A DNA stretch of 59,828 bases. Source: Pseudomonadota bacterium (GTDB taxonomy: Bacteria > Desulfobacterota > Desulfobulbia > Desulfobulbales > JAGXFP01). The stretch spans positions 1 through 59,828 of the forward strand of contig JAHJAA010000050.1 of assembly GCA_018814305.1 (NCBI GenBank), in the 5' to 3' direction. This document shows, piece after piece, positions 29,199 through 44,289 of the stretch. Each line of letters begins with the position of its first letter. Position 1 is the first letter of the stretch. Below the pieces are notes generated by a model that made no database searches, was not told where the DNA came from, and saw nothing but the letters and a program-made list of their open reading frames with translations. Both the position numbers and the translations under genes were made by a program.

Positions 29199-30737
29199 CT
29201 ATCGACCATCTTTAAAAGTCACTCTCCGTCCGTAAGTCGCGAGGAGCTGCCCGAGTTCTCGCTCCAGGTCCTGATCAAAATCGTCTTCATTGGCTCGATA
29301 GCCCCAATTACCTTCCTCATGCCCTGGGACATTCATCCGCCCCTCCCCGCCAAGCCCCAAGAGATCTTGCAGGGGGAAGACGGCAAACCGGGCGACGGAT
29401 GAGATGCCCATCCGCAGAAAATCCCCCGGGAGCTCCAAGGCTGGTTTCCCCAGATAGTCGTTGATTTGTGCGATCTGCTCTTTACTGAGCTCTGAGGCCC
29501 AGTGACAGGTGGTATCATTGTCATGGGTTCCTGAATAAACCACACAGTTGTGAATATAGTTATGGGGAAGATAGGGATTCGATGCACCCTGGTCGTCAAA
29601 GGCAAACTGAAGGATCTTCATACCCGGGAAATTGAAGTCATCCCGAAGTTTTCCAACTCCATCGCTCATCAGGCCTAAATCCTCGGCCCAAATAGGCAAG
29701 TGACCCAATTCTCGTTCAAGAACCTTAAAAAACGAATTACCAGGCGATTTTAGCCACGTCCCATTAATGGCGGTGGTCTCTCCTTCGCCTACGGCCCAAT
29801 ACTCATCAAACCCTCGAAAGTGATCGACCCGCACAATATCAACCACTTCATTTAACCGCCGGAAACGCTCCACCCACCAGCTATAATTATCCCTGGCGAT
29901 ATTTTCCCAGTCATAACAGGGATTGCCCCATAACTGACCCGTGGTACTAAAATAATCGGGTGGTACCCCGGCCATTAACCGGGGCCGATGGGTGGTCAAA
30001 TCCAAGGCGAAATACTCCGGGTGGGTCCAGACATCGGCACTATCAAAGGCCACGTAGAAAGGTACATCTCCCACAATGCGGATCTGCCGCGCATTCGCGT
30101 AGGCTTTTAAAGCCAGCCACTGCCTATAAAACAGGTACTGCCCAATTTTCTGGATTTTTACGACCTCTTGGTTTTCCTGAACCCATATTTTTAAAGCTTG
30201 GGCATCTCGTGTCCTATAGGGGGTCTCCCACTCAGACCAATGAGCCCCAGCGTGTTTCTCCTTGAGTGCCATAAAGAGGGCAAAATCGTTAAGCCAGCCA
30301 GCCTGGTCGCCCAAAAATGCAAGAAAATCCGGGTAGAGAGGGTGATCGACCACCAATGCATCAGCTGCCGCCGCGATGTACTTCCGGCTTTGGATGGTCG
30401 CTCCGGCAAAATCCACCCGGGAGGCGCTATTCCCTGACTTCACTAAGTGGGGGGCGATGAGTCCATCCTGGACGAGTTGTTCCCCATCAAGGAGTTGGGT
30501 GTTCCCCGCCGTGGAAGAGAAGGTTGCATACGGTGAATGGGTCTCTCCGGTGGGACCCAAGGGCAGGACCTGCCAGATACCAAACCCGCTCCGGGCAAGA
30601 AAATCCACAAACCGGAACGCCTCTTTACCCAGGGTTCCGATGGGGCCGCTTCCTGGTAAGGATGACGGGTGCAGTAGAACCCCAGCAAATCGGTCCATTC
30701 CCTCGCTATTCGGGTCGAGATTGCTCTCTGTATTCAT
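29199..30737 (-). CDS. malQ: 4-alpha-glucanotransferase (amylomaltase)
   Basis: About 512 residues, GH77. It has FAGVLLHPSSLPGSGPIGTL near the start, RIVGDVPFYVAFDSADVWTH, VDIVRVDHFRGFDEYWAV with the nucleophile Asp, WAEDLGLM with the acid/base Glu, and VYSGTHDNDTT with the third acid. It transfers glucan chains between maltodextrins or glycogen branches. The ATG at 30737 has AAGGGGA upstream. No other glycogen gene is present, but the sucrose module starts 8 kb away. Confidence 0.95.
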   Translation of the reverse strand: MNTESNLDPNSEGMDRFAGVLLHPSSLPGSGPIGTLGKEAFRFVDFLARSGFGIWQVLPLGPTGETHSPYATFSSTAGNTQLLDGEQLVQDGLIAPHLVKSGNSASRVDFAGATIQSRKYIAAAADALVVDHPLYPDFLAFLGDQAGWLNDFALFMALKEKHAGAHWSEWETPYRTRDAQALKIWVQENQEVVKIQKIGQYLFYRQWLALKAYANARQIRIVGDVPFYVAFDSADVWTHPEYFALDLTTHRPRLMAGVPPDYFSTTGQLWGNPCYDWENIARDNYSWWVERFRRLNEVVDIVRVDHFRGFDEYWAVGEGETTAINGTWLKSPGNSFFKVLERELGHLPIWAEDLGLMSDGVGKLRDDFNFPGMKILQFAFDDQGASNPYLPHNYIHNCVVYSGTHDNDTTCHWASELSKEQIAQINDYLGKPALELPGDFLRMGISSVARFAVFPLQDLLGLGGEGRMNVPGHEEGNWGYRANEDDFDQDLERELGQLLATYGRRVTFKDGR

Positions 30738-30873
30738 CTTTTTCCCCTTGTTGATGATGGCTTCTAAAACAAAAGCCCTTGAATCAAGGATTACAAAACC
30801 GAGGACACGCTCCATTTAAATATACCGAACACTCGCCTCAGCCAACCGAAAAAAAACCTATAAAGACTATTTT

Positions 30874-32058
30874 TTATTCTTCTTGGCCCCAAACAAGGTC
30901 AATATTTTTAAGAATTTCACCGGCTGCCATGCTCTGTTCGGGAAAGTCCATGGCGTGCATTAACGCAGCGACAGAACCATCTTTATCCTCAAGTTTAATC
31001 AGACAATAGGCCAGCATGAGGTATGACTGACCATCACCAGGGTCAAGCTCGGCACTCTTCCTGAATGACTGACCGGCGTCATCATATACGCCCTTGTCGT
31101 AGAGAATTTTGCCCCGAAACAACCAAAGCTGGGCAGACGGGATCTCCGTCAAGGCCATTTCCAGAAACTCAAGGGCCTGGTCGGTCTCATGGGCGGTAAG
31201 ATAGGTAACCGCAAGCCTCTCGGCATTGGTGGTGTTCAACTGATCTTTACCCAGGTTCATGGAAGAACGGTAATACTCTGCCGCAGCCGAGGGTGCATTG
31301 ATTACATTGAACAGGTTGCCGACCAGCATGCTTTCCTCGGCATTCAGTTCCTTGCCGTAGGAGTAGATCAGCAGGGCCTGCAAGGCGGCGTCATAGTCTT
31401 TTATCTCAAGCAGAACCTGGGCGCTGAGCTTCCACAAATACGGCCGATTTTGACTGTTGTCTATCAAGTGCTCAATGGTCTCAAGGGCCTTTGGCAGCAT
31501 ATTGTTTCCCAGGTAGACAGTAATCAGGGTTTCGACCCAGCTCTGATCGGGATCAGGAAGAGCAGCCAACTCCTCCAGCAGTCCGATGGCAACTTGATCC
31601 TCTTCGGCAAGCATATAACATACTGCGGCCTGGTACCTGATCGTCTGGTTTTTCTGTTCACTGAACTCATACCCTTTCAACAGACATTCTGCCGCCCGGC
31701 CATATCGCCCTTCTTCATAGTACAGTTTTCCCAGATTCAACCACGCCCCTGAGAAACCGGGGTAAAGCGAGATCGAACGTTCGTACTGAACAATTGCCTC
31801 CTGATTGTCTCCCCTTTCGGCAACGATGTTTCCAAGCATGAAGCGAATCAGGTAGTGGTCGTTGACAAAATCCCTCAGGATCGCTTCCGCCTTTTCCGTC
31901 TCGCCCTTCGTATATTCATTCTGGGCCTCATTTATGGTGTACCGCCCATCGTGACCAAGCTCAGGTGCGATGGACGGTGCCTTACTGGACTGCTCCCCAG
32001 CCAGGCAAAGGCCAAAACTTACCAGAACAACGAGTATCACCATAACGACCCTGATCAT
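30874..32058 (-). CDS. TPR-repeat protein of the TonB cluster
   Basis: 394 residues with an N-terminal signal peptide (MIRVVMVILVVLVSFGLCLA) and no proper lipobox. The rest is a run of tetratricopeptide repeats, for example YERSISLYPGFSGAWLNLGK and SAELDPGDGQSYLMLAYCLI. It starts one base after the tonB stop. A TPR protein ends the TonB2 clusters of Vibrio and Shewanella in the same position and is needed there for some uptake. It is presumably periplasmic and may scaffold the complex. Confidence 0.8.
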   Translation of the reverse strand: MIRVVMVILVVLVSFGLCLAGEQSSKAPSIAPELGHDGRYTINEAQNEYTKGETEKAEAILRDFVNDHYLIRFMLGNIVAERGDNQEAIVQYERSISLYPGFSGAWLNLGKLYYEEGRYGRAAECLLKGYEFSEQKNQTIRYQAAVCYMLAEEDQVAIGLLEELAALPDPDQSWVETLITVYLGNNMLPKALETIEHLIDNSQNRPYLWKLSAQVLLEIKDYDAALQALLIYSYGKELNAEESMLVGNLFNVINAPSAAAEYYRSSMNLGKDQLNTTNAERLAVTYLTAHETDQALEFLEMALTEIPSAQLWLFRGKILYDKGVYDDAGQSFRKSAELDPGDGQSYLMLAYCLIKLEDKDGSVAALMHAMDFPEQSMAAGEILKNIDLVWGQEE

Positions 32059-32059
32059 G

Positions 32060-32731
32060 TCAGTCCAACTCGAATCGGATGGTGGTTGAAACCCAGGTCT
32101 TGACGTTTTTACCCTCCAGCTTGCCCGGCATGAACTTCCATTTTGTCAGAGCGGACCGGACACTATCCTCGAACACTCCTTCGGGCTCGGCATTGAGGAT
32201 CCTGACCTCAAGCACGTTGCCGTGTTGATCGACCAGAAACATGACACTCACCTTACCGGCGACATTCGAACGTTTGGCAGAATTGGGATACTCTGGCTTG
32301 AGCTGAAACAACGGTGAAGGTGGCTGATCCACATCCGCAATGCTGAAGGCTTGTGGTTGGGATCCAATGGCCTCAATTTTCTGCGGGGCTTGATCCGGGA
32401 CGGAGATTGGAACTCCTTTTGAGAGCACCGGGTTTATGTTGAACTGCATCCTGGGAAGACTGAGCTCCAGATCATGGCCCACCGGTTGAGGAACGATATC
32501 ATCACTCATCAGAGGCTCAGGTTTTAGTTCCTGCTTGATTTCAGGCACGATGGGTTCGTCAGGTTTCTGGGCAAGATGAAACATTTTTATCGGGATAAGC
32601 CGGTCGAGATCCTGCCCGGAAGACGTAATCCTGGAGATCATCGGCTGAAAAGAAAAAAGCGTGATATTTACCAGCATGGAAAGGAGAATCGCCAGGGGCA
32701 GGACTCTGATATCCCTGTTACCGGTCTTCAT
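32060..32731 (-). CDS. tonB: TonB energy transducer
   Basis: 223 residues. A single N-terminal helix (residues 12-30, PLAILLSMLVNITLFSF) anchors it. A short, only moderately proline-rich spacer follows, then the C-terminal TonB domain with PEYPNSAKRSNVAGKVSVMF, EVRILNAEPEGVFEDSV and ALTKWKFMPGK. The spacer is short and more acidic/proline-mixed than in E. coli TonB, like TonB2-type proteins. The start overlaps exbD by 14 bases. Confidence 0.88.
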   Translation of the reverse strand: MKTGNRDIRVLPLAILLSMLVNITLFSFQPMISRITSSGQDLDRLIPIKMFHLAQKPDEPIVPEIKQELKPEPLMSDDIVPQPVGHDLELSLPRMQFNINPVLSKGVPISVPDQAPQKIEAIGSQPQAFSIADVDQPPSPLFQLKPEYPNSAKRSNVAGKVSVMFLVDQHGNVLEVRILNAEPEGVFEDSVRSALTKWKFMPGKLEGKNVKTWVSTTIRFELD

Positions 32732-33140
32732 CTGCCAGTTCCGTTGCTATGCTGATGTCCGTTGCTCCCGCAAGCCGGCACCCGTCCATGATCATGATGA
32801 GCACTCCGGCCTGGGCCCGCTTGTCCGCCACCAGCACCACAGAGGAGCCCGGAGCCTCGGCCAGGGCTTTTTCAACATGATGCCTGACACTGCGGATATC
32901 GATCTTCTTCTTGTCAAAAAACACGCCTCCGTTTTCGTCGACCCCCACCAGAATACTTCCCTGGTCCTGCAGCACCGCTGTGGATGCCACCGGTCGCTGC
33001 ACCTCAATGCCCGTCTCCTTGACAAAGCTTGTGGTTACAACAAAGAAGATAAGGAGCAAAAAGACCATATCTATAAGGGGCGCCATATTAATGGCTACCG
33101 GGGTATCCCTGTTTCTCATTGTATCCCTGACACTGCGCAT
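32718..33140 (-). CDS. exbD: Biopolymer transport protein ExbD
   Basis: 140 residues. One N-terminal membrane helix carries the proton-path aspartate in APLIDMVFLLLIFFVVTTSF (Asp near residue 24). A periplasmic domain with ILVGVDENGGVFFDKKKID and VVLVADKRAQAG follows. ExbD works with ExbB to couple proton flow to TonB. The TAATG overlap with exbB shows tight coupling. Confidence 0.9.
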   Translation of the reverse strand: MRSVRDTMRNRDTPVAINMAPLIDMVFLLLIFFVVTTSFVKETGIEVQRPVASTAVLQDQGSILVGVDENGGVFFDKKKIDIRSVRHHVEKALAEAPGSSVVLVADKRAQAGVLIMIMDGCRLAGATDISIATELADEDR

Positions 33141-33730
33141 TAGCCCTCCATCCTCTTGATCAACCCTGCAAAATTATCAAGCCCGGCCTCAATCCTCTGG
33201 GCCATCCGACTGAGGAATGCACCCATGAACAGACCCGGGACCGCTACCAACAGTCCACTCTGGGTGGTTATGAGCGCAGTTGAAATCCCCCCGGCCATCG
33301 CCTTTGCATTGCCGGTTCCAAAAACAGATATCACATCGAAGGTGGCAACCATACCGACCACCGTCCCGAGCAATCCCAAAAGCGGGGCGATGGCGGCAAG
33401 GATATGGATGGTACTGAGATTTCTTCTCACCCTGTGTTTTTCCCTTTTCATGAGGATGTCGACCACCGATGGATCGGGCAAGCCGCCTTTGGAGGAATTC
33501 TGGGCGAGGTCATTGATGAACCTTTCCTCGATCGTTCTGACGGCTGAAATATTGTTCAAAATGGGCAGTCCATGACCGGTTCCATGGCCTACAGGTCTGT
33601 TCAGCCTCCAGAAAACCATTGACCGCTCAAATATCAAAATCCACATCCACAATGAGATCCCCACCAACGGAATCATGACCGGCCCTCCCCTTGCCAGGAA
33701 GTCATACAGTTCCATCGGCAAAAGGTTCAT
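33140..33730 (-). CDS. exbB: ExbB/TolQ-family proton channel protein
   Basis: 196 residues with three membrane segments. HILAAIAPLLGLLGTVVGMV and GGISTALITTQSGLLVAVPG are the MotA/TolQ/ExbB signature stretches in helices two and three. It is the short ExbB2-type partner of ExbD. It starts in an ATGA overlap with the long TtpC-like gene upstream. ATG at 33730 or 33715 could be used. Confidence 0.9.
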   Translation of the reverse strand: MNLLPMELYDFLARGGPVMIPLVGISLWMWILIFERSMVFWRLNRPVGHGTGHGLPILNNISAVRTIEERFINDLAQNSSKGGLPDPSVVDILMKREKHRVRRNLSTIHILAAIAPLLGLLGTVVGMVATFDVISVFGTGNAKAMAGGISTALITTQSGLLVAVPGLFMGAFLSRMAQRIEAGLDNFAGLIKRMEG

Positions 33731-35139
33731 CCTGCGATCCTTTCAGGAGATTCAGCTCTATCCTTAAGGATCATGTTCACCAAGGTGACCGCTTTTTCCT
33801 CAATATCATCGATGATATTGAAACCCCTTCTGGAGAGAAAATTATGAAAGAACATGATCGGTATAGCCACGGTGAGGCCGAGCATGGTTGTGATTAAAGC
33901 CTCTGATATTCCGCCGGCCATCATCCTGGGATCGCCTGTCCCATAGATGGTAATCGACTGAAACGTACTGATCATTCCGGTGACGGTTCCCAGAAGTCCA
34001 AGCAAGGGCGCAATGGCCCCGAGCACGCTGAGGGTCGGGAGGTACCGCTCAAAATATCGCCCCTCCCGAATGATGGCTTCGTGGACCAGGGTTTCGAGGG
34101 ACTCCTTGTCTTCGTTCCGGTTGAGAATGGCACCTAAGAGTACGCGATGAAGCTGCTTGTCAGCCTTGAGCATCTCTGCGGCGTGGTCCCAGCGGGCGTC
34201 GCCTGAAAGCTTCTCAATATTGACCATGGTCTTGTCAGAATCCGTATAGCCTTTCATAATCACCAGCAACCGTTCCAGTATCATCAAAAGGGCCACCAAG
34301 CCGATGGCAAGGATGGGCCAGACCAGGGGTCCGCCATCTCGGATTTTATCGGCCATCCCGCTCTTCTTCGCATATCTCGCAGTGGCAGCACCTCCCGAAA
34401 GATCGAGACTGACCACATCCGCAGCCCCGGAAGCCAATCCTTTCAAGGCGACTCCGGTGGCTCGATCAGGAAGGGAGGTGTAGGCAACCATCTGACCCGT
34501 GCTTTCAGATGGCCAGAGGAAACCAGCCTCATTGCCCGTAACGTAGGCGCTGAAAAATCTGCCAAGGGTAATAATGTTCCCCTGTGCCAAGGTTCCATCC
34601 CGCCCGACAAAGGCCCCGTCCTTCACCAGAGGTGTCGATTCGAGCTCAATCACCCTGAAGGCCAGGTCCGTCAAGGAGTTTATATCATTGATACCGGCAA
34701 CCTCTACCGATTGCCCCATCTCGTCCAGTCTGCTGAATTCATTACGGTAGATGGGATAAAGGCTTGACGTTTTGATCGCCTCGGTCAGGTCCTTTTGCAT
34801 AATCCGCACGATTACCGCCAAGTCGTTGGCGTCTTCTTTCACCCCTGTTTCAACCTTCTGAAGACTGCTCGCCTTCGCCATAAGCCCATCAAGCTCTGCT
34901 TGAAGTTTTGAGTTCTCGGCCTGAATGTGGATCAGGGTGGAGTCATGGTGCTTGAGTTGAGCCTTCAGCCTGTCGCGCTCAAGACCAATCCGGTAGAGGG
35001 TGTCCTGGTATTCTTCCAGGGCGGCCTTCCGATGCTGATCCGCATTCACCAAGGGAGTGTCCTGATCGGCAAGAACCATGACAGGCGAAATCATAAGGCA
35101 GGCAGCCAGAAAGACACATATGCTCAGTGCTTTATTCAT
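33727..35139 (-). CDS. ttpC: TtpC-type long ExbB-like protein
   Basis: 470 residues: a signal peptide (residues 1-24), a coiled-coil periplasmic region (about 30-115, rich in Lys/Glu/Leu with LERDRLKAQLKHHDS), a further periplasmic domain to about 285, then a C-terminal ExbB-like channel part with LGAIAPLLGLLGTVTGMIST and GGISEALITTMLGLTVAIPI. This architecture is TtpC, the fourth essential part of TonB2 systems in Vibrio. It begins directly at the DUF3450 stop codon. Confidence 0.88.
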   Translation of the reverse strand: MNKALSICVFLAACLMISPVMVLADQDTPLVNADQHRKAALEEYQDTLYRIGLERDRLKAQLKHHDSTLIHIQAENSKLQAELDGLMAKASSLQKVETGVKEDANDLAVIVRIMQKDLTEAIKTSSLYPIYRNEFSRLDEMGQSVEVAGINDINSLTDLAFRVIELESTPLVKDGAFVGRDGTLAQGNIITLGRFFSAYVTGNEAGFLWPSESTGQMVAYTSLPDRATGVALKGLASGAADVVSLDLSGGAATARYAKKSGMADKIRDGGPLVWPILAIGLVALLMILERLLVIMKGYTDSDKTMVNIEKLSGDARWDHAAEMLKADKQLHRVLLGAILNRNEDKESLETLVHEAIIREGRYFERYLPTLSVLGAIAPLLGLLGTVTGMISTFQSITIYGTGDPRMMAGGISEALITTMLGLTVAIPIMFFHNFLSRRGFNIIDDIEEKAVTLVNMILKDRAESPERIAG

Positions 35140-35907
35140 TTATCTCACCACCCTTCCCACCGGCAGATCGATGATCTCCGCCGCCCTCTGGTGCCGAGCT
35201 ACCTCCATCGCCCTACCGATGTCTGCAGCGAATTTTGCCGGAAGCGGTTCCCAGCCCCTGCCGGGTCCGGAATATCTTCCCACCTTCTGCCCGTCCGGGC
35301 TTTGATAAAAAAGGGCGGCGCTGCCAATGCGAAGAACGTTTGCCGTCAACCGATCTCCAGTAACCTCGATTGTTTGCTGATAGACCTCAACGGTCCTGGC
35401 GTATTCGACCTCAATCAACACCGCCTCCATGGTTCTTCTGTACTTCTCAGCGATTCCGATCTGGCTATCGTCCAATAATGCTCGCAGGAGCGCTATCCGC
35501 GCATTTCGTTCCTCCATAAGCATGGGTAGACCAGCGCTGCTGTGCGCCTCGATCCTATCAATCAGATTTCCCAAGAGCACTTCGATTTCATCCATGGGTT
35601 TATCTTGGGACTCGACCCTGGCTTTCTTTTCCAATTCTTCAATGGCCACCTTGGTCTTGGCAATCAAGGATTCAAGTTCAGCCTTGGTAGAAGTCATATC
35701 CTCCATATCGTTCAAAAGAATGTTTTTTTGTTTTACAAGTTCTGTCTTCTGCCGCGCCCATTGTTCCTTCTCAGTCTGGGTGCGCTTGTAGATTTCGATG
35801 GTGGTGGAGGTTGTATCAATCAGGGCGCCGGCGATTGATTCTGCGAAGCTATTTTCTACCGAATATAATGAGGCTAAAGCCCATACTGCCAGAATGAGTA
35901 ATCTCAT
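35140..35907 (-). CDS. DUF3450 periplasmic coiled-coil protein
   Basis: About 255 residues. After a signal peptide (MRLLILAVWALASLYSVENS) comes a long coiled coil (about 25-100, with MEDMTSTKAELESLIAKTKV). The C-terminal part, with RIGSAALFYQSPDGQKVGRY, is the DUF3450 signature. DUF3450 genes are a regular companion of ttpC-exbB-exbD-tonB clusters, and the coiled coil could partner that of TtpC. The ATG at 35907 has AAAGGA upstream; a TTG at 35925 is the only longer alternative. Confidence 0.85.
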   Translation of the reverse strand: MRLLILAVWALASLYSVENSFAESIAGALIDTTSTTIEIYKRTQTEKEQWARQKTELVKQKNILLNDMEDMTSTKAELESLIAKTKVAIEELEKKARVESQDKPMDEIEVLLGNLIDRIEAHSSAGLPMLMEERNARIALLRALLDDSQIGIAEKYRRTMEAVLIEVEYARTVEVYQQTIEVTGDRLTANVLRIGSAALFYQSPDGQKVGRYSGPGRGWEPLPAKFAADIGRAMEVARHQRAAEIIDLPVGRVVR

Positions 35908-35921
35908 GGTCCTATCCTTTC

Positions 35922-38159
35922 TCAAAACTCTGCCCTGACCCCAATAAACGGTATGATGGGCAGCCCGTACACGGGTTTTTTCTCGGAGTAGTCTTCATTA
36001 TATTCATAACTTTCTATATTTTTTCTAAAGTATGCGTTCATGATTTCAAAATAGAGATTCATTTTCCATTTTTTATAAAAATAGAGTCTCTCCGCCCTCA
36101 AGTCGAGGCTATGATAATCCGGAATCCGCTCGGAATTAAGCTTCCCTTCCACCGGTCTGACCGAGCCGTCCTCATAGGTGCCGTCGATACCGACCACCGG
36201 GGTATACGGGCTGCCGGAGTGATAGGTCCATTTGGCGCCGAAAGTCCACCTCGAGGTGAGTTTGTAATTTGCCACCAGTTTTATATCCACCGGCCGATCA
36301 TAATCGAAATCAAAGTACTCTCCCTGGCCCTGATCTTTTCTCTCTGCCTTTGAAAGCGTAAACCCCAACCAGCCGGAAAGCCGTTCGGTATGAGCCTTTC
36401 TCACCATGAAGTCTGCACCGTATGCCCGTCCGACTCCGTTATTTGCAAACGTGTTCACCGGATCCGAGGTGACAAGTTTATCAAAGCTCTTGTAAAATCC
36501 TTCGGTTTTTACCGACCAGCCCTGCCCGATTTTTTTCTCCGCACCGAGGACGTAATGGTCGGACTCCACCTTATCCAGGTGAGCGTTGCCGAGCTTTTCG
36601 CTAATATATTTGAATTCAGGCATCTGGTGGTATCTCCCAACACCAGCGGAGAGGGTCACATCATCTGCCAATCCCAATTCAGCACCGAGCCTTGGATCGG
36701 CGATCAGGATGTCGGTGAGATCGTCATGGGTCACTCGCATCCCCCCGATAAGGGTCAGATTGTCAGTTATGGTCCACCGATCCTTGGCAAACACGCTTGA
36801 AAAATTGACCTTCAGGTGATCATCGAACTGAATTCTGTCAGCGTCTTTATAAGAGCAGTCGGTGTCGAATTCCGTGCAGTTCGGAAATTTTGCGTCGAAG
36901 GTCAGGCCTATTGATGAGGTTACATACCCTGCGCCAACCGTTATTTCGTGGTCATCCCAGGGCCTCAAGGTCGCCTGTTCTTTCAGAAAATAATTTTCCT
37001 GTCCAACCTCAAAATCAAAGATCCGGGCGAGTTTAAAGGACATCGTGAGATCAAGCCGCCCCAATCCCAGTTTGTTCACTGTGCCGTTTTTTGATCGATA
37101 GGTCCAGACCACCCCTTGATTATGGTCTGCGATGTCATAAGCGCTGTCGCCCACCATTTCCGGATCCTTTTCCGCAATCTCGGAGTTCTCACCGATGGTG
37201 AACTCCACGGCATCCGAGGACCCGCTGAGCTGGAAGCTCAAGGTATTGGACCCATTGACAGTCCACAGGTATTTGCCTTGATAGTCATCGTACACCGGGA
37301 CCGTCATGGTAAAATCATCCTCTTCCGACACTATTTCCGAGAGGAACAGGTCGAAATAGCTCCTCCGAGCCCCGAAATAAAACGATTGGGTTTCGGTCAC
37401 CGGCCCTTCCACCAAAAAGTCTGACTCCAGAAAGCTGATATGGACTTTAAGGCCAAGTCGATCCTTTCTCGGCTCACGGAGTCGGACGTCGATGGCCGAT
37501 CCGATCACATCATCGGCAACATACAGTTCCGGCCCGAATGCGGACTTATAGAGATTGAAGTCTTCAACCAGGTCGCCGTTGATCGTACTGATGAGCCCTC
37601 CCATGTGGAACAGATGCCCGACGGGCAGAAAATCTACAATATAGATATTATCACCAGGCCTTGAGCCCCTGATTGCCGGCTCTCCAGAGTCGGAGGATAC
37701 CCCGGGCAGTGACGTCAGGGCCAAGAGAGGATCGCCCCGGCTTCCAGCCACCAGCCGCAGTTCCTCCCCTTCAATGATGGTCTTGCTCAGGTTATCCGGA
37801 TTCCGTTCAGCCTTGACTACAAAATCAGGGATGATCACTCCTGGCTCCAGATAAAGAATAATCGTACTGGCGTCAGTGGTCTCGACCTCAATGGGATTGG
37901 ACTTCTTAAACCCCAAGGCTGCGGCTCTTAAAGTATATCTCCCTGGACTTAGAACTGTTAGGGAAAATGACCCGTTTTCATCCGTAACGGCAAAAACGCC
38001 TGACTGCTGTTTTGCAGTTACAGTTATCCCTTCAAGGGGCTTTCGCGATCCCTTGACAAACACATTGCCCCTGAGTTCAAAGGCCCCTTCCTGGGCATGG
38101 ACCGGGATCAAGGTCAGAAGGAATATTGACAAACACAAGGCCGTAATTGACTTTTGCAT
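35922..38159 (-). CDS. TonB-dependent outer-membrane receptor with carboxypeptidase-regulatory-like N-domain
   Basis: About 745 residues. Signal peptide MQKSITALCLSIFLLTLIPV, then a CarboxypepD_reg-like beta domain (about 25-105, with GNVFVKGSRKPLEGITVTAK and SPGRYTLRAAALGF), a plug (about 120-230, with LTSLPGVSSDSGEPAIRGSR) and a 22-strand-type barrel ending in Phe (FIGVRAEF). It should take up a ligand across the outer membrane using the machinery encoded directly downstream. The ligand is unknown: no siderophore, cobalamin or sugar genes lie beside it, and I see no Fur box or cobalamin riboswitch upstream. The ATG at 38159 fits the signal peptide better than the extension to 38240. Confidence 0.88.
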   Translation of the reverse strand: MQKSITALCLSIFLLTLIPVHAQEGAFELRGNVFVKGSRKPLEGITVTAKQQSGVFAVTDENGSFSLTVLSPGRYTLRAAALGFKKSNPIEVETTDASTIILYLEPGVIIPDFVVKAERNPDNLSKTIIEGEELRLVAGSRGDPLLALTSLPGVSSDSGEPAIRGSRPGDNIYIVDFLPVGHLFHMGGLISTINGDLVEDFNLYKSAFGPELYVADDVIGSAIDVRLREPRKDRLGLKVHISFLESDFLVEGPVTETQSFYFGARRSYFDLFLSEIVSEEDDFTMTVPVYDDYQGKYLWTVNGSNTLSFQLSGSSDAVEFTIGENSEIAEKDPEMVGDSAYDIADHNQGVVWTYRSKNGTVNKLGLGRLDLTMSFKLARIFDFEVGQENYFLKEQATLRPWDDHEITVGAGYVTSSIGLTFDAKFPNCTEFDTDCSYKDADRIQFDDHLKVNFSSVFAKDRWTITDNLTLIGGMRVTHDDLTDILIADPRLGAELGLADDVTLSAGVGRYHQMPEFKYISEKLGNAHLDKVESDHYVLGAEKKIGQGWSVKTEGFYKSFDKLVTSDPVNTFANNGVGRAYGADFMVRKAHTERLSGWLGFTLSKAERKDQGQGEYFDFDYDRPVDIKLVANYKLTSRWTFGAKWTYHSGSPYTPVVGIDGTYEDGSVRPVEGKLNSERIPDYHSLDLRAERLYFYKKWKMNLYFEIMNAYFRKNIESYEYNEDYSEKKPVYGLPIIPFIGVRAEF

Positions 38160-38593
38160 ACCGTTCCGGGGATTTATCTCTCTTGGATGGAACTCATGAC
38201 ATGAATTGAAGATATAAGAAACCTGCCCTGTTTGATACACATCTTACTGAAGAAGATCGATATGTCATCAGCCATTTAAGCATTACTGGATTTTATTTCC
38301 TAGAAATTGGTCGTCTGGTCAGTTCATTATGGAGGGCTCGGGTTTCCTCGCAAGGCCCTCGAAACCACGGCACAGCAGCACTATTTCAAGGTTGGGGCCT
38401 CGCCGCGAGGACCGCGAGGGCTGGGAATGAAGAGACAGGACGAACCAAACGGCACACACCTTGTCGCCCACCCCAATATGAGAAAAATTGATTTTCCTTC
38501 CGTTTAACTCCAGTCTCTTGCTACACTAAAGGATCCTCAAGCACAAATTGGGGGGGCAAATGGGCCTTTTAATGTAATGATGATGTGACAATA
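38160..38593. other. Divergent intergenic region upstream of the receptor and sucrose-phosphate synthase genes
   Basis: About 430 bases without a gene. It must hold the promoters of both divergent units but no good -35/-10 pair stands out. The central part (38332-38421) is dense in inverted repeats and is listed separately. The sequence just before sucrose-phosphate synthase lacks an evident ribosome binding site. Confidence 0.5.
38332..38421 (+). repeat. Nested and interlocking inverted repeats, candidate structured RNA
   Basis: GAGGGC (38332-38337) can pair with GCCCTC (38355-38360), while GGTTTC (38341-38346) can pair with GAAACC (38361-38366), an interlocked pseudoknot-like order. In addition CCTCGC at 38346 and 38398 and GCGAGG at 38405 and 38414 allow two nested stems. 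Several pairings exclude each other, as in switching leaders, but they could also be degenerate repeat DNA. Confidence 0.45.
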
Positions 38594-40783
38594 ATGAATG
38601 ATAAGGGATTATATCTGCAGCTTTTTAGTATTCATGGGCTGATTCGCGGCACCTCCCCCGAGTTGGGTCGTGATGCCGATACCGGTGGCCAGATCAAATA
38701 CGTCCTGGAGCTGGCCAGGGCCCTGGCCGAAAGAGACGACGTGGCCCAGGTCGACCTGGTCACCCGCCTGATTGACGACAAGACGGTGGCCAAGGAATAC
38801 AGTCAGGTTATCGAACCACTTGCCGACAAGGCTCGCCTGGTGCGCATTGCCTGCGGTGGTCGCCGCTACATTCGCAAAGAACTGCTCTGGCCCCATCTCC
38901 AGGAGTTTGTCGACAACACCATCCGTTTTATCAGGAGCGAGAACAGAGTCCCCGATCTCTTTCACGGCCATTATGCCGACGGTGGTCTGGTGGCCATGGA
39001 GTTGGCTGCCGCCTTTGATGCGCCCTTTATCTTCACCGGTCATTCCATGGGCCGTAATAAGTTGGCCAAACTGTTGGCTGACGGGATGAACCAGATCGAC
39101 ATCGACAAACAGTACCATATGGATACCAGGATCCAGGTGGAAGAGGAGATCATCAGCCATTCCGATCAGATCATTACCTCCACCCAGCAGGAGATCGATA
39201 AACAGTACGGGCTTTACGATAATTTCAAGGAGGGTCACTTTGAGGTGATCCCTCCCGGCATTGATATGAGAAATTTCTATCCCTATTACGATTCCCAGCT
39301 CGATACCGGCCTGATGAGCCAGGAGGTCAAACAGACCAGGTTGATGCTACTGGCCGAGCTCCATAAGTTCTGGCTCCAGCCGGAAAAGCCATTCATTCTG
39401 GTACTCTGTCGGCCTGACCACCGTAAAAACATTACCGGTCTCATCGAGGCGTACGGGAACAATAAGGAGTTGCAGGCCCTGGCCAATCTTGCTGTCTTTG
39501 CCGGGATCCGCCAGAACATCACCACCATGGAGGAAAATGAGCAGGCGGTGCTCACCGATATGCTCCTGCAGATGGACCGTTTTGATCTCTACGGCAAAAT
39601 GGCCATTCCCAAGAAACATGATTTTGCCACCGAGGTTCCGGAACTCTACCGCCTCTGCGCCGAAGCCAAGGGGGTCTTTGTCAATCCCGCCCTGGTGGAA
39701 CCCTTTGGCCTCACCCTGATTGAGGCCTCGGCCTGCGGCCTGCCCATTGTCGCCACCGACGACGGCGGACCGGTGGATATTATCAGGAACTGTCAAAACG
39801 GCATTCTGGTCAATGCCACAGACCCGATGGCAATCGGCCGGGCCATCCAGACCATCCTGGTTGATTCCAAGCTCTGGGACACTTATTCAAATAACGGGAT
39901 CAATGGTGTACTCAGTTATTACTCCTGGCAAGCCCATTGCCAAAAGACCATGGATCAGCTCCAGAAGATCTTTCCCGAGGTTGTTGCTGCGGAAAGCAGG
40001 AAGGAGGACTCTCTGCCGATTGCGGCTCGCAGTCGACCCTCCTTTGGGAAGCGCCTGACCAGTCTTGATCACCTCTTTATCACCGATATCGACAACACCC
40101 TGATCGGCGACGATGAAAGCCTGCACCAGCTTCTGGCCATCCTTGAGGAGAATCATGACCGCATGGCCTGGGGGGTTGCCACCGGCCGCAGCATCGGCCT
40201 GACCATTGATGCCATGACCGAATACAATATTCCCATCCCGGATACCTTGATCTGTTCGGTGGGCACCGAGATCTATTATGGTCCTGATCTCCGTCAGGAT
40301 AAAGGCTGGCAACAGCATATCTCGCACCGCTGGCAGCCGGAAAGGATCAAAGAGGTCCTGGGTAAGGTGACCTTCCTCACCTTTCAGGAAGCCGAGGGCC
40401 AGCGCAGCCATAAGATCAGCTATTATATGGCCGATGATTATGACTACCTGGCCTGGATCCATCATGTCCTGGACGAGGCCAAACTTCAGTGCGAGATCAT
40501 CTACTCCCATGGGCGATTTCTTGATATCCTGCCCCTGCGGGCCTCCAAGGGCAAGGCCATTGACTATGTCATCCACAAGTTTGGCTTTCCGCCCCGCCAG
40601 GTCATGGTCTCAGGAGATTCAGGCAACGACGAGGATATGCTCCTTGGCCAGGCCCGCGGTCTGGTGGTGGGCAATTATTCCGAAGAACTGGAGAAGCTCA
40701 AAGGAAAACCCCGAGTCTACTTCAGTAAGGAGAACTATGCCGCCGGGATCATCGACGGTCTCCAGCATTTCGGGCTGGTCTGA
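38594..40783 (+). CDS. Sucrose-phosphate synthase with C-terminal HAD phosphatase domain
   Basis: About 729 residues. The GT4 part opens with LFSIHGLIRGTSPELGRDADTGGQIKY in pieces, with the HGHYADGG and FTGHSMGRNKLAKLL elements of sucrose-phosphate synthases, and EPFGLTLIEASACGLPIVAT is the GT4 donor site. From about residue 495 a HAD domain starts with ITDIDNTLIGDD (Asp near 498) and ends with VMVSGDSGNDEDML, as in sucrose-6-phosphate phosphatase. It may thus make sucrose-6-phosphate from UDP-glucose and fructose-6-phosphate and also dephosphorylate it. The start could be ATG 38594 or GTG 38585. Confidence 0.88.
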   Translation: MNDKGLYLQLFSIHGLIRGTSPELGRDADTGGQIKYVLELARALAERDDVAQVDLVTRLIDDKTVAKEYSQVIEPLADKARLVRIACGGRRYIRKELLWPHLQEFVDNTIRFIRSENRVPDLFHGHYADGGLVAMELAAAFDAPFIFTGHSMGRNKLAKLLADGMNQIDIDKQYHMDTRIQVEEEIISHSDQIITSTQQEIDKQYGLYDNFKEGHFEVIPPGIDMRNFYPYYDSQLDTGLMSQEVKQTRLMLLAELHKFWLQPEKPFILVLCRPDHRKNITGLIEAYGNNKELQALANLAVFAGIRQNITTMEENEQAVLTDMLLQMDRFDLYGKMAIPKKHDFATEVPELYRLCAEAKGVFVNPALVEPFGLTLIEASACGLPIVATDDGGPVDIIRNCQNGILVNATDPMAIGRAIQTILVDSKLWDTYSNNGINGVLSYYSWQAHCQKTMDQLQKIFPEVVAAESRKEDSLPIAARSRPSFGKRLTSLDHLFITDIDNTLIGDDESLHQLLAILEENHDRMAWGVATGRSIGLTIDAMTEYNIPIPDTLICSVGTEIYYGPDLRQDKGWQQHISHRWQPERIKEVLGKVTFLTFQEAEGQRSHKISYYMADDYDYLAWIHHVLDEAKLQCEIIYSHGRFLDILPLRASKGKAIDYVIHKFGFPPRQVMVSGDSGNDEDMLLGQARGLVVGNYSEELEKLKGKPRVYFSKENYAAGIIDGLQHFGLV

Positions 40784-40901
40784 AAAGACAGGAACCCGAA
40801 TTCAGAATTCAGTAGCAGCAAGCAGAAGTCAGAGCGGAATGAGCGCCAACAGAATAAGGTAGCAACGAATATCCGACAAGGAAGGCCAACGCCCCTCTTT
40901 C

Positions 40902-43298
40902 TTAAAAACTCTCACCACTCTTCTCAATCTTTGCGGCCAGGGGCCTGAACTGAAGGTGATAGAGCATCTCCAGGTAGCGGCTGGTTTCCTGGCGATCGAG
41001 GTTGGTGGCAAATTTCCAGAACCCGTAGATACAGGTCAGCGACAGCAGCCGCTTGGCGTAGCGTTTCCAGGTGTAATGACTCTGGACCCGATTGATGGCA
41101 CCCTCGGACAGGGCCTGCCAATGCTCCGGCTCCTGCTGACAACGGATAAAAAAATCAGCGATAATATCGGCAGCCTCGGCGCCGTGGTTGGGATTGATAT
41201 GAAAACCGGAGATGCCGTTTTCAATGATCTCCAGGGGGCCACCGTAGCTGGTGGCAAAGGTGGGCAACCCCGAGGCCATGGCCTCAATCACCGTCAAACC
41301 GAAGGCCTCAAAATAGGCCGGTTGGATAAAGGCGGAACGTTTGTCAGCCAGGTAACGGTAGAGCTCGCCGGTGAGGTTCTTATCCAGGCGTATACCCAGC
41401 CAGCGGACCTGGCCGTCCAGACCATGCTCATCAAAGAGGGCATGCATGCGGAGGATCTGGGCCCGCTCTTCGTTATCGGACGAATTATCCGGATTGACCG
41501 TGCCGCAGATAAGCAAGAGGTTGGTCTGCTCCCGCAAACGAGGGTTGCCGGCATACCACTCCACCAGGCCGGTGAGATTTTTGATGTGGTCCAGGCGAGC
41601 CATGGAAAAGATGAGCGGCTTATCCTGGTCGATAAGAACGCCGCGACTCTGGGCTCGACCGCCCCCAAAGACCAGCTCGTCAAGCTCAGCGTGCAGACCG
41701 CTCAGCCGTCTCTCCTTGTCGGAATACGGGAAATAGACCTCGGCATCGGCGCCGGGCGAGACGATATTGAACTTCGGGTCAAAGACATTGATCCCGCTCA
41801 CCACCCGTTGCAGGCCAGGCATGGTGAAGGAGGAGTAACTCTCATACTGACCCACCATATTATCGCTACCGGCAATCTCCTGGTAAGTACTGGTGATGAT
41901 AAAATCAGCGGCGTTCATGGCGATGAGATCGGCGGTGAACTGGCAGGAGAAATGATACTGCTCCTCCATCTCCTGCCAATAGAGGGCGGAGTAAAGGTAT
42001 TTGGTCTTTTCCAGGGCATGGGCAATGGTGCATTGGGTGACGCCCAGGCGCAGGGCCATGAGGGTGGCCACCAGGTTGCCGTCCGAGTAATTCCCGATGA
42101 TCAAATCGGGCCGCCGGCCCAGACGGGCCATGACTTCACGCTCCGCCTCCAGGGAATAGCGTTCCAGATAGGGCCAGACCTCAAAACGTGAGAGCCACTG
42201 GGGGATGACCGCGCCATCCTTGGAGCGAAAGGGAATCCGGACAATCTTGACATTTTGGGTGCCGTTAACCTTTTCCTCCGCCTGGTTGCATGTGGTGTCG
42301 CCGGCCTCGGGCAGCAGACGGGTGAGGATAATGATCTGCGGCTCAATATCCAGTCCCTGCTCATATATGCGAGATCGCATCTCCTTTTCCAGGGCCCGCA
42401 CCTGATCGAGAATATAGACCACCTGACCACCGGTATCAGGCAGACCCAGGACGTTTTCCTGACCGAAATAGCCGTGGGGTGAGAGGATGACTATGTTAAA
42501 GATCATGGGGATGCGGCTGAAAAATTGCTCCAGGGCGCCATGGTCCGGGGCCTCCAGGATGTCGGCCAGCAGGCTGAAGCTATCGACAATCCGATCAACC
42601 CGACGCCCCCACCCCGGCTCAAAGCCCATGGGTTGCAGGCGACTGCTGACCTCCTGCCAGGTGGCATCGTCTGCCTGGTCGGCCAGAAACTCCATGCCGG
42701 TACGCAGGGCCTGTTGCAGTCCAGCCATGTTCTTGATGGTATCATTGATCATAAAGGGCATGCCGCCATAACCATGGACCTTGAGAAAGGAGAGGATGAG
42801 CTCGTCACCCTTGGCAAGATCGTTGGCCAGACGGCTGGAAAAACGGCGATTGAGAAACTCGACCCCATGGCCAATGGAGCGGGTCTGGGTCATCTTGGGA
42901 AAGTGTCGCTCAAAGGGAGTAAGATCAATCTCCAGGATGCGAAAACCAGGGTCGCTGGTGACCAGTCCCTCTTTAAAGAAGAGAAACTGCGAGGCCGAAA
43001 CTTCTTCCATGGTCATGGCCTCAAAGTGAAAGCGCAGATACTGCCAATGGGCCACCCGGGGCCGGACATCGAGATAGAGCCAGGGTGAGACAATAGCAGC
43101 CTCCTGGGTATGGGCAATGGCCTCGGCCAGAGGAGAATCAAAGAGGCCGGGGTTTTCGGTTTCGGTGCAGTAGAGGGTGAATGCATCCCAGAGCTCAGTG
43201 CGCAGCATCAAGTTCTTTCCGGTTTCCTGAAAGCGACGAAACAGGCTATAGACAGCATCGCGGTTATCCTGAATGTACTGTATCAGGTTATCAATCAT
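40902..43298 (-). CDS. Sucrose synthase
   Basis: 798 residues, the full length of the plant and cyanobacterial enzymes. The long N-terminal regulatory part (to about 270) has [17 protein letters not shown]. The GT4 part has [54 protein letters not shown] and [20 protein letters not shown]. It reversibly cleaves sucrose with UDP or ADP into fructose and nucleotide-glucose. AAGGAG lies before the ATG at 43298. It converges with sucrose-phosphate synthase and diverges from the sugar kinase gene, 133 bases away. Confidence 0.93.
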
Positions 43299-43431
43299 AG
43301 GGTCTCCTTGACTTTTGGGGAGGGTGTCGAAAGGGCAAACAGGCCAGATTTTGCTATCTGGGGCCAGGTGATCTATACTGAGGGCATCTCTTTAACAGAG
43401 TATCAAAAAGTATCCAGCGAAGGTAGGTTTT

Positions 43432-44289
43432 ATGGCAAAAGATTTAATCATATCCATTGGCGAGATCGTCTGGGACCAATTTCCAAACCGCAGTGTTTTG
43501 GGCGGTGCCCCCCTGAACGTGGGCTACCACCTTCAAGCCCGAGATCTATCGGTGCTGGTTGCAAGCCGGATCGGAGCTGATGCCCAGGGCCGGAAAACTC
43601 TGGCCCGGCTTCATGATATCGGTCTGGCAGTTGACGCTATCCAGATTGATGACCACCTGCCCACCGGCAGGGTGCTCGTCAGCATGGACGGCAACAACGA
43701 ACCCCATTTTGAGATCGAAAAGCCGGCAGCCTGGGACCATATCCAGGCTGCTGGGGTGGAAAACGTTGTTGCCAACCAATCGTTTCACCTGGTCTGTGGG
43801 ACCCTGGCCCAACGAGACAAGGAGAGCCGACAGACAATCCGACGCCTCTGGCAACAGGCCACTACCATCTTTTATGACGTAAACCTGAGGCCCCCAGATA
43901 CCCCCTTGGATCATGTCCGGGCCTCTCTTATTGCAGCCCAGGTAGTGAAAGTGAACCGTGAGGAACTGGCCATCCTCAATCAGGCTCTGGTGGGCGCCGG
44001 GGGACGGGAAGAAGAGGTGGCAGCTGCATTGCTGGCGGCCTTTGACCTCAAGTTACTGGCTGTGACCCGTGGCAGCGAGGGCGCCTTGCTCATTAATTCT
44101 GATGGCTATCACACCCACCCTGGGTTCAAAATTATTGTTGCCGACACTGTGGGCAGTGGCGACGCCTTTTTTTCCGGTATCATTGCCGGCTATCTGACCG
44201 GGGCTGATTTAAAAAACTGCCTGGAAGAGGCCAACCGGCTCGGCGCCTATGTGGCCTCAAGATCGGGGGCGACACCCGACTATCCTTAA
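43432..44289 (+). CDS. PfkB-family sugar kinase, probable fructokinase
   Basis: 285 residues. It has the ribokinase-fold signatures IISIGEIVWDQFPN, GGAPLNVGYHLQARD near the N-terminus, and the C-terminal catalytic motif VADTVGSGDAFFSGIIAGYL with the base Asp. Placed beside sucrose synthase it most likely phosphorylates the fructose released from sucrose. Fructokinase specificity is inferred from context rather than from a residue pattern. No strong ribosome binding site is clear; GAAGG precedes the ATG by several bases. Confidence 0.85.
   Translation: MAKDLIISIGEIVWDQFPNRSVLGGAPLNVGYHLQARDLSVLVASRIGADAQGRKTLARLHDIGLAVDAIQIDDHLPTGRVLVSMDGNNEPHFEIEKPAAWDHIQAAGVENVVANQSFHLVCGTLAQRDKESRQTIRRLWQQATTIFYDVNLRPPDTPLDHVRASLIAAQVVKVNREELAILNQALVGAGGREEEVAAALLAAFDLKLLAVTRGSEGALLINSDGYHTHPGFKIIVADTVGSGDAFFSGIIAGYLTGADLKNCLEEANRLGAYVASRSGATPDYP

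Follow-up and report, generated by a model that had tools for sequence, protein, structure and literature searches.

What does a TonB system that is led by its own receptor do, and for which receptor does it work? The question is raised by seven genes on the minus strand, running from 38159 to 30874, of contig JAHJAA010000050.1 (assembly GCA_018814305.1, order Desulfobulbales; positions 1 to 59,828, the window hereafter), listed as contig C12 in a draft genome of 4.15 Mb. We read these genes as one self-contained outer-membrane uptake machine, a Ttp-type TonB system with its own head receptor, at a probability of roughly 0.8. Gene content, gene order, and homology carry this reading, together with the separate clade of the receptor and the energiser genes that recur as neighbors of its relatives. 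All seven open reading frames (ORFs) are confirmed at the positions given by an earlier note made from the sequence alone, and their coordinates, overlapping or abutting ends, and Pfam domains bear out the gene list and tight coupling that it described:

35922..38159, minus strand: TonB-dependent outer-membrane receptor of 745 amino acids (ORF list, Pfam, predicted structure)
35140..35925, minus strand: ttpB-like gene, DUF3450 protein of 261 amino acids from a TTG start (Pfam, predicted structure)
33727..35139, minus strand: ttpC-like gene, predicted DUF3450-related periplasmic N-domain plus ExbB/TolQ channel domain (Pfam, profile comparison)
33140..33730, minus strand: exbB (Pfam)
32718..33140, minus strand: exbD (Pfam)
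32060..32731, minus strand: tonB (Pfam, hydrophobic segments)
30874..32058, minus strand: ttpD-like gene, tetratricopeptide repeat (TPR) protein (Pfam, hydrophobic segments)
38160..38584, no strand: upstream region to the divergent sucrose-phosphate synthase (motif scan)

The receptor gene overlaps ttpB by 4 bp, ttpB and ttpC abut (gap 0), and ttpC overlaps exbB by 4 bp; exbB and exbD share 1 bp, exbD and tonB share 14 bp, and a gap of 1 bp separates tonB from the TPR gene. An alternative GTG start of the receptor is possible at 38240, and an ATG lies 18 bp inside the TTG start of ttpB. The same seven genes stand in the same order in a second genome of the order (identity 76% for the receptor, 70% for TtpB, and 75% for TtpC); thus, the arrangement is not due to chance. 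At 0.515, the guanine-cytosine content of the operon matches that of the window (0.523), which gives no sign of recent transfer.

Behind the receptor, the six genes ttpB-ttpC-exbB-exbD-tonB-ttpD follow the order of Ttp-type TonB2/TonB3 operons. Those of Vibrio hold the same six energiser genes, with the DUF3450 gene called ttpB and the TPR gene ttpD, and all six TonB2 parts, TtpB2 and TtpD2 included, are reported to be essential (PMC6957404). The hallmarks of the type are present here: TtpB is a DUF3450 protein (195.5 bits in Pfam), TtpC combines an ExbB-like part (MotA_ExbB, 108.2 bits) with a large extra N-terminal region, and TtpD is matched by many TPR families, while ExbB (89.3 bits), ExbD (103.6 bits), and TonB_C (65.7 bits) complete the set. 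Further, the receptor heads the operon, a TonB3-type feature. In V. vulnificus TonB3, which is likened here by gene order and not by sequence and is reported to be inactive in iron transport, the receptor also comes first, followed by ttpB, ttpC, exbB, exbD, tonB, and ttpD (PMC6957404). In V. parahaemolyticus, peuA and VPA0151-0156 (the ttpC2-tonB2 genes) are described in PMC4141801 as one receptor-led, iron-repressible operon, and PeuA-dependent growth on enterobactin as lost only in the tonB2 mutant. This system has a ferric enterobactin receptor, two-component genes, and Fur control; here, two-component genes are absent and no Fur box rises above background. Consequently, neither the gene set nor the head receptor is without precedent, and the earlier contrast with Vibrio, by which a leading receptor set this operon apart, has to be dropped. 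The TonB2 and TonB3 clusters of Teredinibacter turnerae likewise comprise the same six ttp/exb/ton genes; according to a 2023 paper, loss of tonB3 had no iron or cellulose phenotype, and TonB3 function is called unknown (PMC10734418).

Judged by homology, the operon belongs with the Ttp-type (TonB2/TonB3-like) systems and has a head receptor; its engine and layout are known. Ttp-type systems, described for vibrios and some marine bacteria, are hereby extended to this order, and a head receptor with many culturable relatives offers a handle on TonB3 function. What is added here is the kinship between TtpB and the N-terminal domain of TtpC, the separate receptor clade, the linkage to energiser parts in 30 of 71 named loci, and the finding that the surroundings of the family lack a conserved ligand gene.

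In the proposed mechanism, ExbB, ExbD, and the ExbB-like part of TtpC would use the proton gradient to set TonB in motion. TtpB and the periplasmic domain of TtpC, both with related DUF3450 domains and long helices, might form a periplasmic scaffold around TonB together with TtpD. TonB would then pull the plug of the receptor encoded in the operon, so that the ligand can enter. Co-transcription, the scaffold role, import, and the preference for the head receptor are the parts of this scheme that we infer.

The N-terminal region of TtpC scores 28.4 bits against DUF3450, below the cut-off of 32.6. A TtpC-type N-terminal match exceeds the cut-off in five other genomes of the order (G135, G132, G202, G084, and G110), that of G110 being a partial stretch not confirmed as TtpC; DUF3450 on ExbB-type proteins has already been noted in print (PMC12505986). 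In a profile–profile comparison of 34 TtpB and 30 TtpC sequences, the two proteins align over 205 columns with a probability of 98.5, an E-value of 3.8e-15, and 10% identity. Coiled coil can inflate such scores; the alignment extends beyond it into the strand part of the TtpB model. On the strength of these profiles, the predicted periplasmic domain of TtpC is related to TtpB, and the need for TtpB and TtpC becomes a testable question of pairing. The TtpB model (mean predicted local distance difference test score, pLDDT, 85.9; predicted template modeling score 0.54) comprises a helix of residues 3–106, the first ~25 of which are probably a signal peptide, three more helices, and a small five-strand domain. 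Compared with solved structures, it yields no match at an E-value of 0.001 or better (best 0.093), and its best VIA-align Z score is 7.8, a value that the tool describes as frequent among helical models. The long helix of the model and the profile alignment agree with the long helices that had been proposed for both proteins. TtpC has three hydrophobic segments, with residues about 27–267 outside the membrane and a probable signal peptide at the N terminus. TonB carries an N-terminal hydrophobic segment (7–29) and TonB_C at 146–222, while the single hydrophobic segment of the TPR protein, also N-terminal, is a probable signal peptide.

In the receptor, a signal peptide is followed by the carboxypeptidase-regulatory-like N-domain already ascribed to it (CarboxypepD_reg, PF13620, 48.5 bits), a TonB-box-like motif recognized by eye (DFVVKAE), a plug-like region, and the barrel (PF00593, 80.9 bits). 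The model (mean pLDDT 86.4) shows a barrel preceded by a folded domain and resembles solved TonB-dependent transporters along its entire length. Phylogenetically, the receptor and its relatives are separated from the other receptors in the tree by a branch with 100% support in the Shimodaira–Hasegawa-like approximate likelihood ratio test. This tree, built by a quick method that flags long branches, compares 51 family rows with 19 other receptors; of the 73 family rows, 22 were omitted, 18 as near-duplicates and four as incomplete. The family lies apart from E. coli FhuA, FepA, FecA, CirA, and BtuB and from six other receptors of this genome. The phylogeny that the earlier note had proposed thus places the receptor outside the E. 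coli siderophore and B12 clades. Three Vibrionaceae operon heads (V. campbellii, Vibrio sp., and Photobacterium) join FhuA and not the window receptor, and receptors upstream of ttpB elsewhere also fall outside the family.

Members of the family turned up in 4 of 96 relatives, in 7 of 395 phylum-wide genomes, and in 71 named loci, spread over Geobacteraceae, Myxococcota, Oceanospirillales, Undibacterium, Elusimicrobia, and Campylobacterota; a genome scan with the single receptor sequence and a search of viral contigs found nothing. The 30 loci with energiser parts at the receptor, a figure without a matched control outside the order, comprise one six-gene set, five cases of tonB alone, 11 of exbBD, mostly with tonB, and 13 TonB C-terminal fusions. 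On the tree, these linkage states need at least 10 changes. The fusions were called by our own profile, and all four sent to NCBIfam were confirmed, one also by Pfam; weak calls are L146 (24 bits) and L127 (34 bits) among the fusions and L161 (29 bits) and L162 (27 bits) for tonB. Within the order, a TonB_C gene lies within 6 kb of all four family receptors versus at least 29 of 154 Plug receptors in 43 genomes (Fisher p = 0.0016, uncorrected for kinship). This enrichment is moderate, since it rests on four receptors and 19% of ordinary Plug receptors have such a neighbor as well.

The TonB-fused receptors, mostly from Myxococcota, carry the TonB C-terminal domain ahead of CarboxypepD and plug in one ORF (L130, L134, L136, L137, L141, L142, L147, L148, L154, L156, and L160 and, weakly, L127 and L146). 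MxcH (NCBIfam NF038079) has a TonB C-terminal domain at the receptor N terminus as do the 13 family members, whose match to this model is confined to its TonB part. That these receptors constitute a class of TonB-dependent transporters not described before, tend to carry a private energiser arrived at by four routes (a lone tonB gene, exbB-exbD-tonB, the six-gene Ttp set, or fusion of the receptor with a TonB C-terminal domain), and import a non-siderophore ligand, and that TtpB and the TtpC N-domain act as a paralogous coiled-coil scaffold in the Ttp-type energiser, would, with all parts taken jointly, be rather improbable.

Does the energiser work for the head receptor in particular? The six-gene set might instead serve several receptors, with the head receptor as one client, as in Vibrio TonB2, and we give this somewhat less than even odds. 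The genome encodes three TonB_C genes and four ExbD genes besides six other Plug receptors. Five of these six have tonB and exbD of their own on contigs C21 and C43, which speaks against sharing, whereas the contig of the remaining one (C35) holds no TonB_C or ExbD match. Of the 257 genomes of the order, 29 have a DUF3450 match over the cut-off. Among the 31 DUF3450 loci, which include the window, at least six have, among the upstream ORFs tested, a receptor within 1.5 kb of ttpB (the window, G012, G084, G165, G234, and G022); three loci have less than 1 kb upstream. Thus, other receptors, or none found, precede the set elsewhere: those of G084, G165, and G234 fall outside the family on the tree, and that of G022 gives no family match. 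Against sharing, receptor and set remain associated in two families of the order. The TtpC proteins of the window and G012 form their own long branch among those of the order. A second Ttp-type set, ttpB-ttpC-exbB-exbD-tonB, occurs in L084 (G012:C8:49000-65500) and L085 (G001:C245:3000-19500), where it is preceded by a beta-helix protein (L084, PF13229) or a similar lipoprotein-like gene and followed by a Plug-bearing ORF of ~1,100 amino acids; its TtpC is a separate branch.

Several observations weigh against a self-contained machine. The two further TonBs of the genome could serve the head receptor, and the TonB of the operon could serve others. No energiser gene is nearby in 41 of the 71 named loci (24 of them one Oceanospirillales group, and several on short contigs), so that linkage is not needed for function. 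Moreover, linkage alone is no proof of exclusivity, because Myxococcus Oar, according to PMC6434023, is apparently energised without its neighboring Ton system. Finally, PF07715 (Plug) stays below threshold on the receptor in the Pfam scan; a plug-like region is visible in the model and the alignment. In the Oceanospirillales group (L105 and neighbors, Thalassolituus and relatives), the receptor is preceded by a conserved series of genes resembling a cluster for lipid modification (FAD amine oxidase, DUF1365-like, and cyclopropane-synthase-like, named by eye).

If the operon is a self-contained importer, what does it import? Our best guess, slightly favored, is a non-siderophore organic molecule. 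None of 677 neighbor ORFs represents a conserved ligand gene around the family. The neighbor groups present in at least three of nine clades are ExbB-like (5), ExbD (5), sensor kinase-like (3), and ABC ATPase (3), the latter two being common domain types; TonB is present in 2.

Iron or another metal complex appears unlikely as ligand. The nearest solved folds are of mixed ligand classes led by the ferric enterobactin receptor PfeA, but pyrroloquinoline quinone (PQQ), ferredoxin, zinc, copper, and cobalamin transporters follow at similar E-values in the same list. We rejected structure as a guide to the ligand, as transporters for enterobactin, ferredoxin, PQQ, pyoverdine, zinc, copper, citrate, and cobalamin score alike. 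With the receptor profile, only the ferredoxin receptor FusA falls below an E-value of 0.01 (4.7e-4, over 51 plug residues), and the single receptor sequence gave no such match. In addition to the separate clade, the lack of a Fur box above background argues against a metal complex: the best match at 38101–38600 is 11/19, and a score of at least 11 is found in 195 of the window's 238 half-kb stretches. No cobalamin riboswitch reaches the gathering score in the window, so that the absence of Fur and cobalamin signals stands as first described. A CRP-type palindrome is likewise absent from the upstream region 38160..38584.

Hand-over of an organic acid or hydrophobic ligand to a tripartite ATP-independent periplasmic (TRAP) importer is a less probable variant still. 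It is suggested by G024, in which a distant relative (34% identity) stands in an apparent operon receptor-exbB-exbD-tonB-TAtT-DctP-DctQ-DctM on one strand. This is a single case, and a single-sequence search of the 71 named loci detected no TAtT or Dct proteins close to the receptor; across the order, TAtT is widespread (112 of 257 genomes), and in this genome it lies on another contig, C10. Literature searches on TAtT with TonB receptors, and on "DUF3450 domain-containing" with "TonB-dependent", were without result.

Uptake of maltodextrin or sucrose is improbable. The earlier note saw no ligand-specific neighbors; yet malQ (29199–30815) lies 58 bp downstream of the operon on the same strand, and sucrose-phosphate synthase, sucrose synthase, and fructokinase stand side by side upstream at 38585–44289 (all named by reading of the sequences). 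What holds of that statement is that neither association recurs, for which reason we rejected these genes as a ligand clue. Of 20 sucrose-phosphate synthase loci from relatives, 18 also hold sucrose synthase and/or fructokinase, whereas none of the 20 contains a receptor-operon gene, and malQ is found in 0 of these 20 and 0 of 74 family loci (two duplicates). Slightly less probable still is a role in protein export as for Oar of Myxococcus xanthus, which shares the PF13620 N-domain and adjoining Ton genes and acts in PopC secretion (PMC6434023, whose accessible part does not describe TtpB, TtpC, or TtpD), since no conserved protein cargo gene surrounds the family and the barrel scores 80.9 bits with PF00593 versus 15.7 with PF25183 (cut-off 30). 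Oar is likened here by domains, not by sequence.

Apart from the operon, the end of a Group II intron (Rfam RF00029, 44.7 bits) lies at positions 1–70 of the window on the minus strand, at the very edge of the contig.

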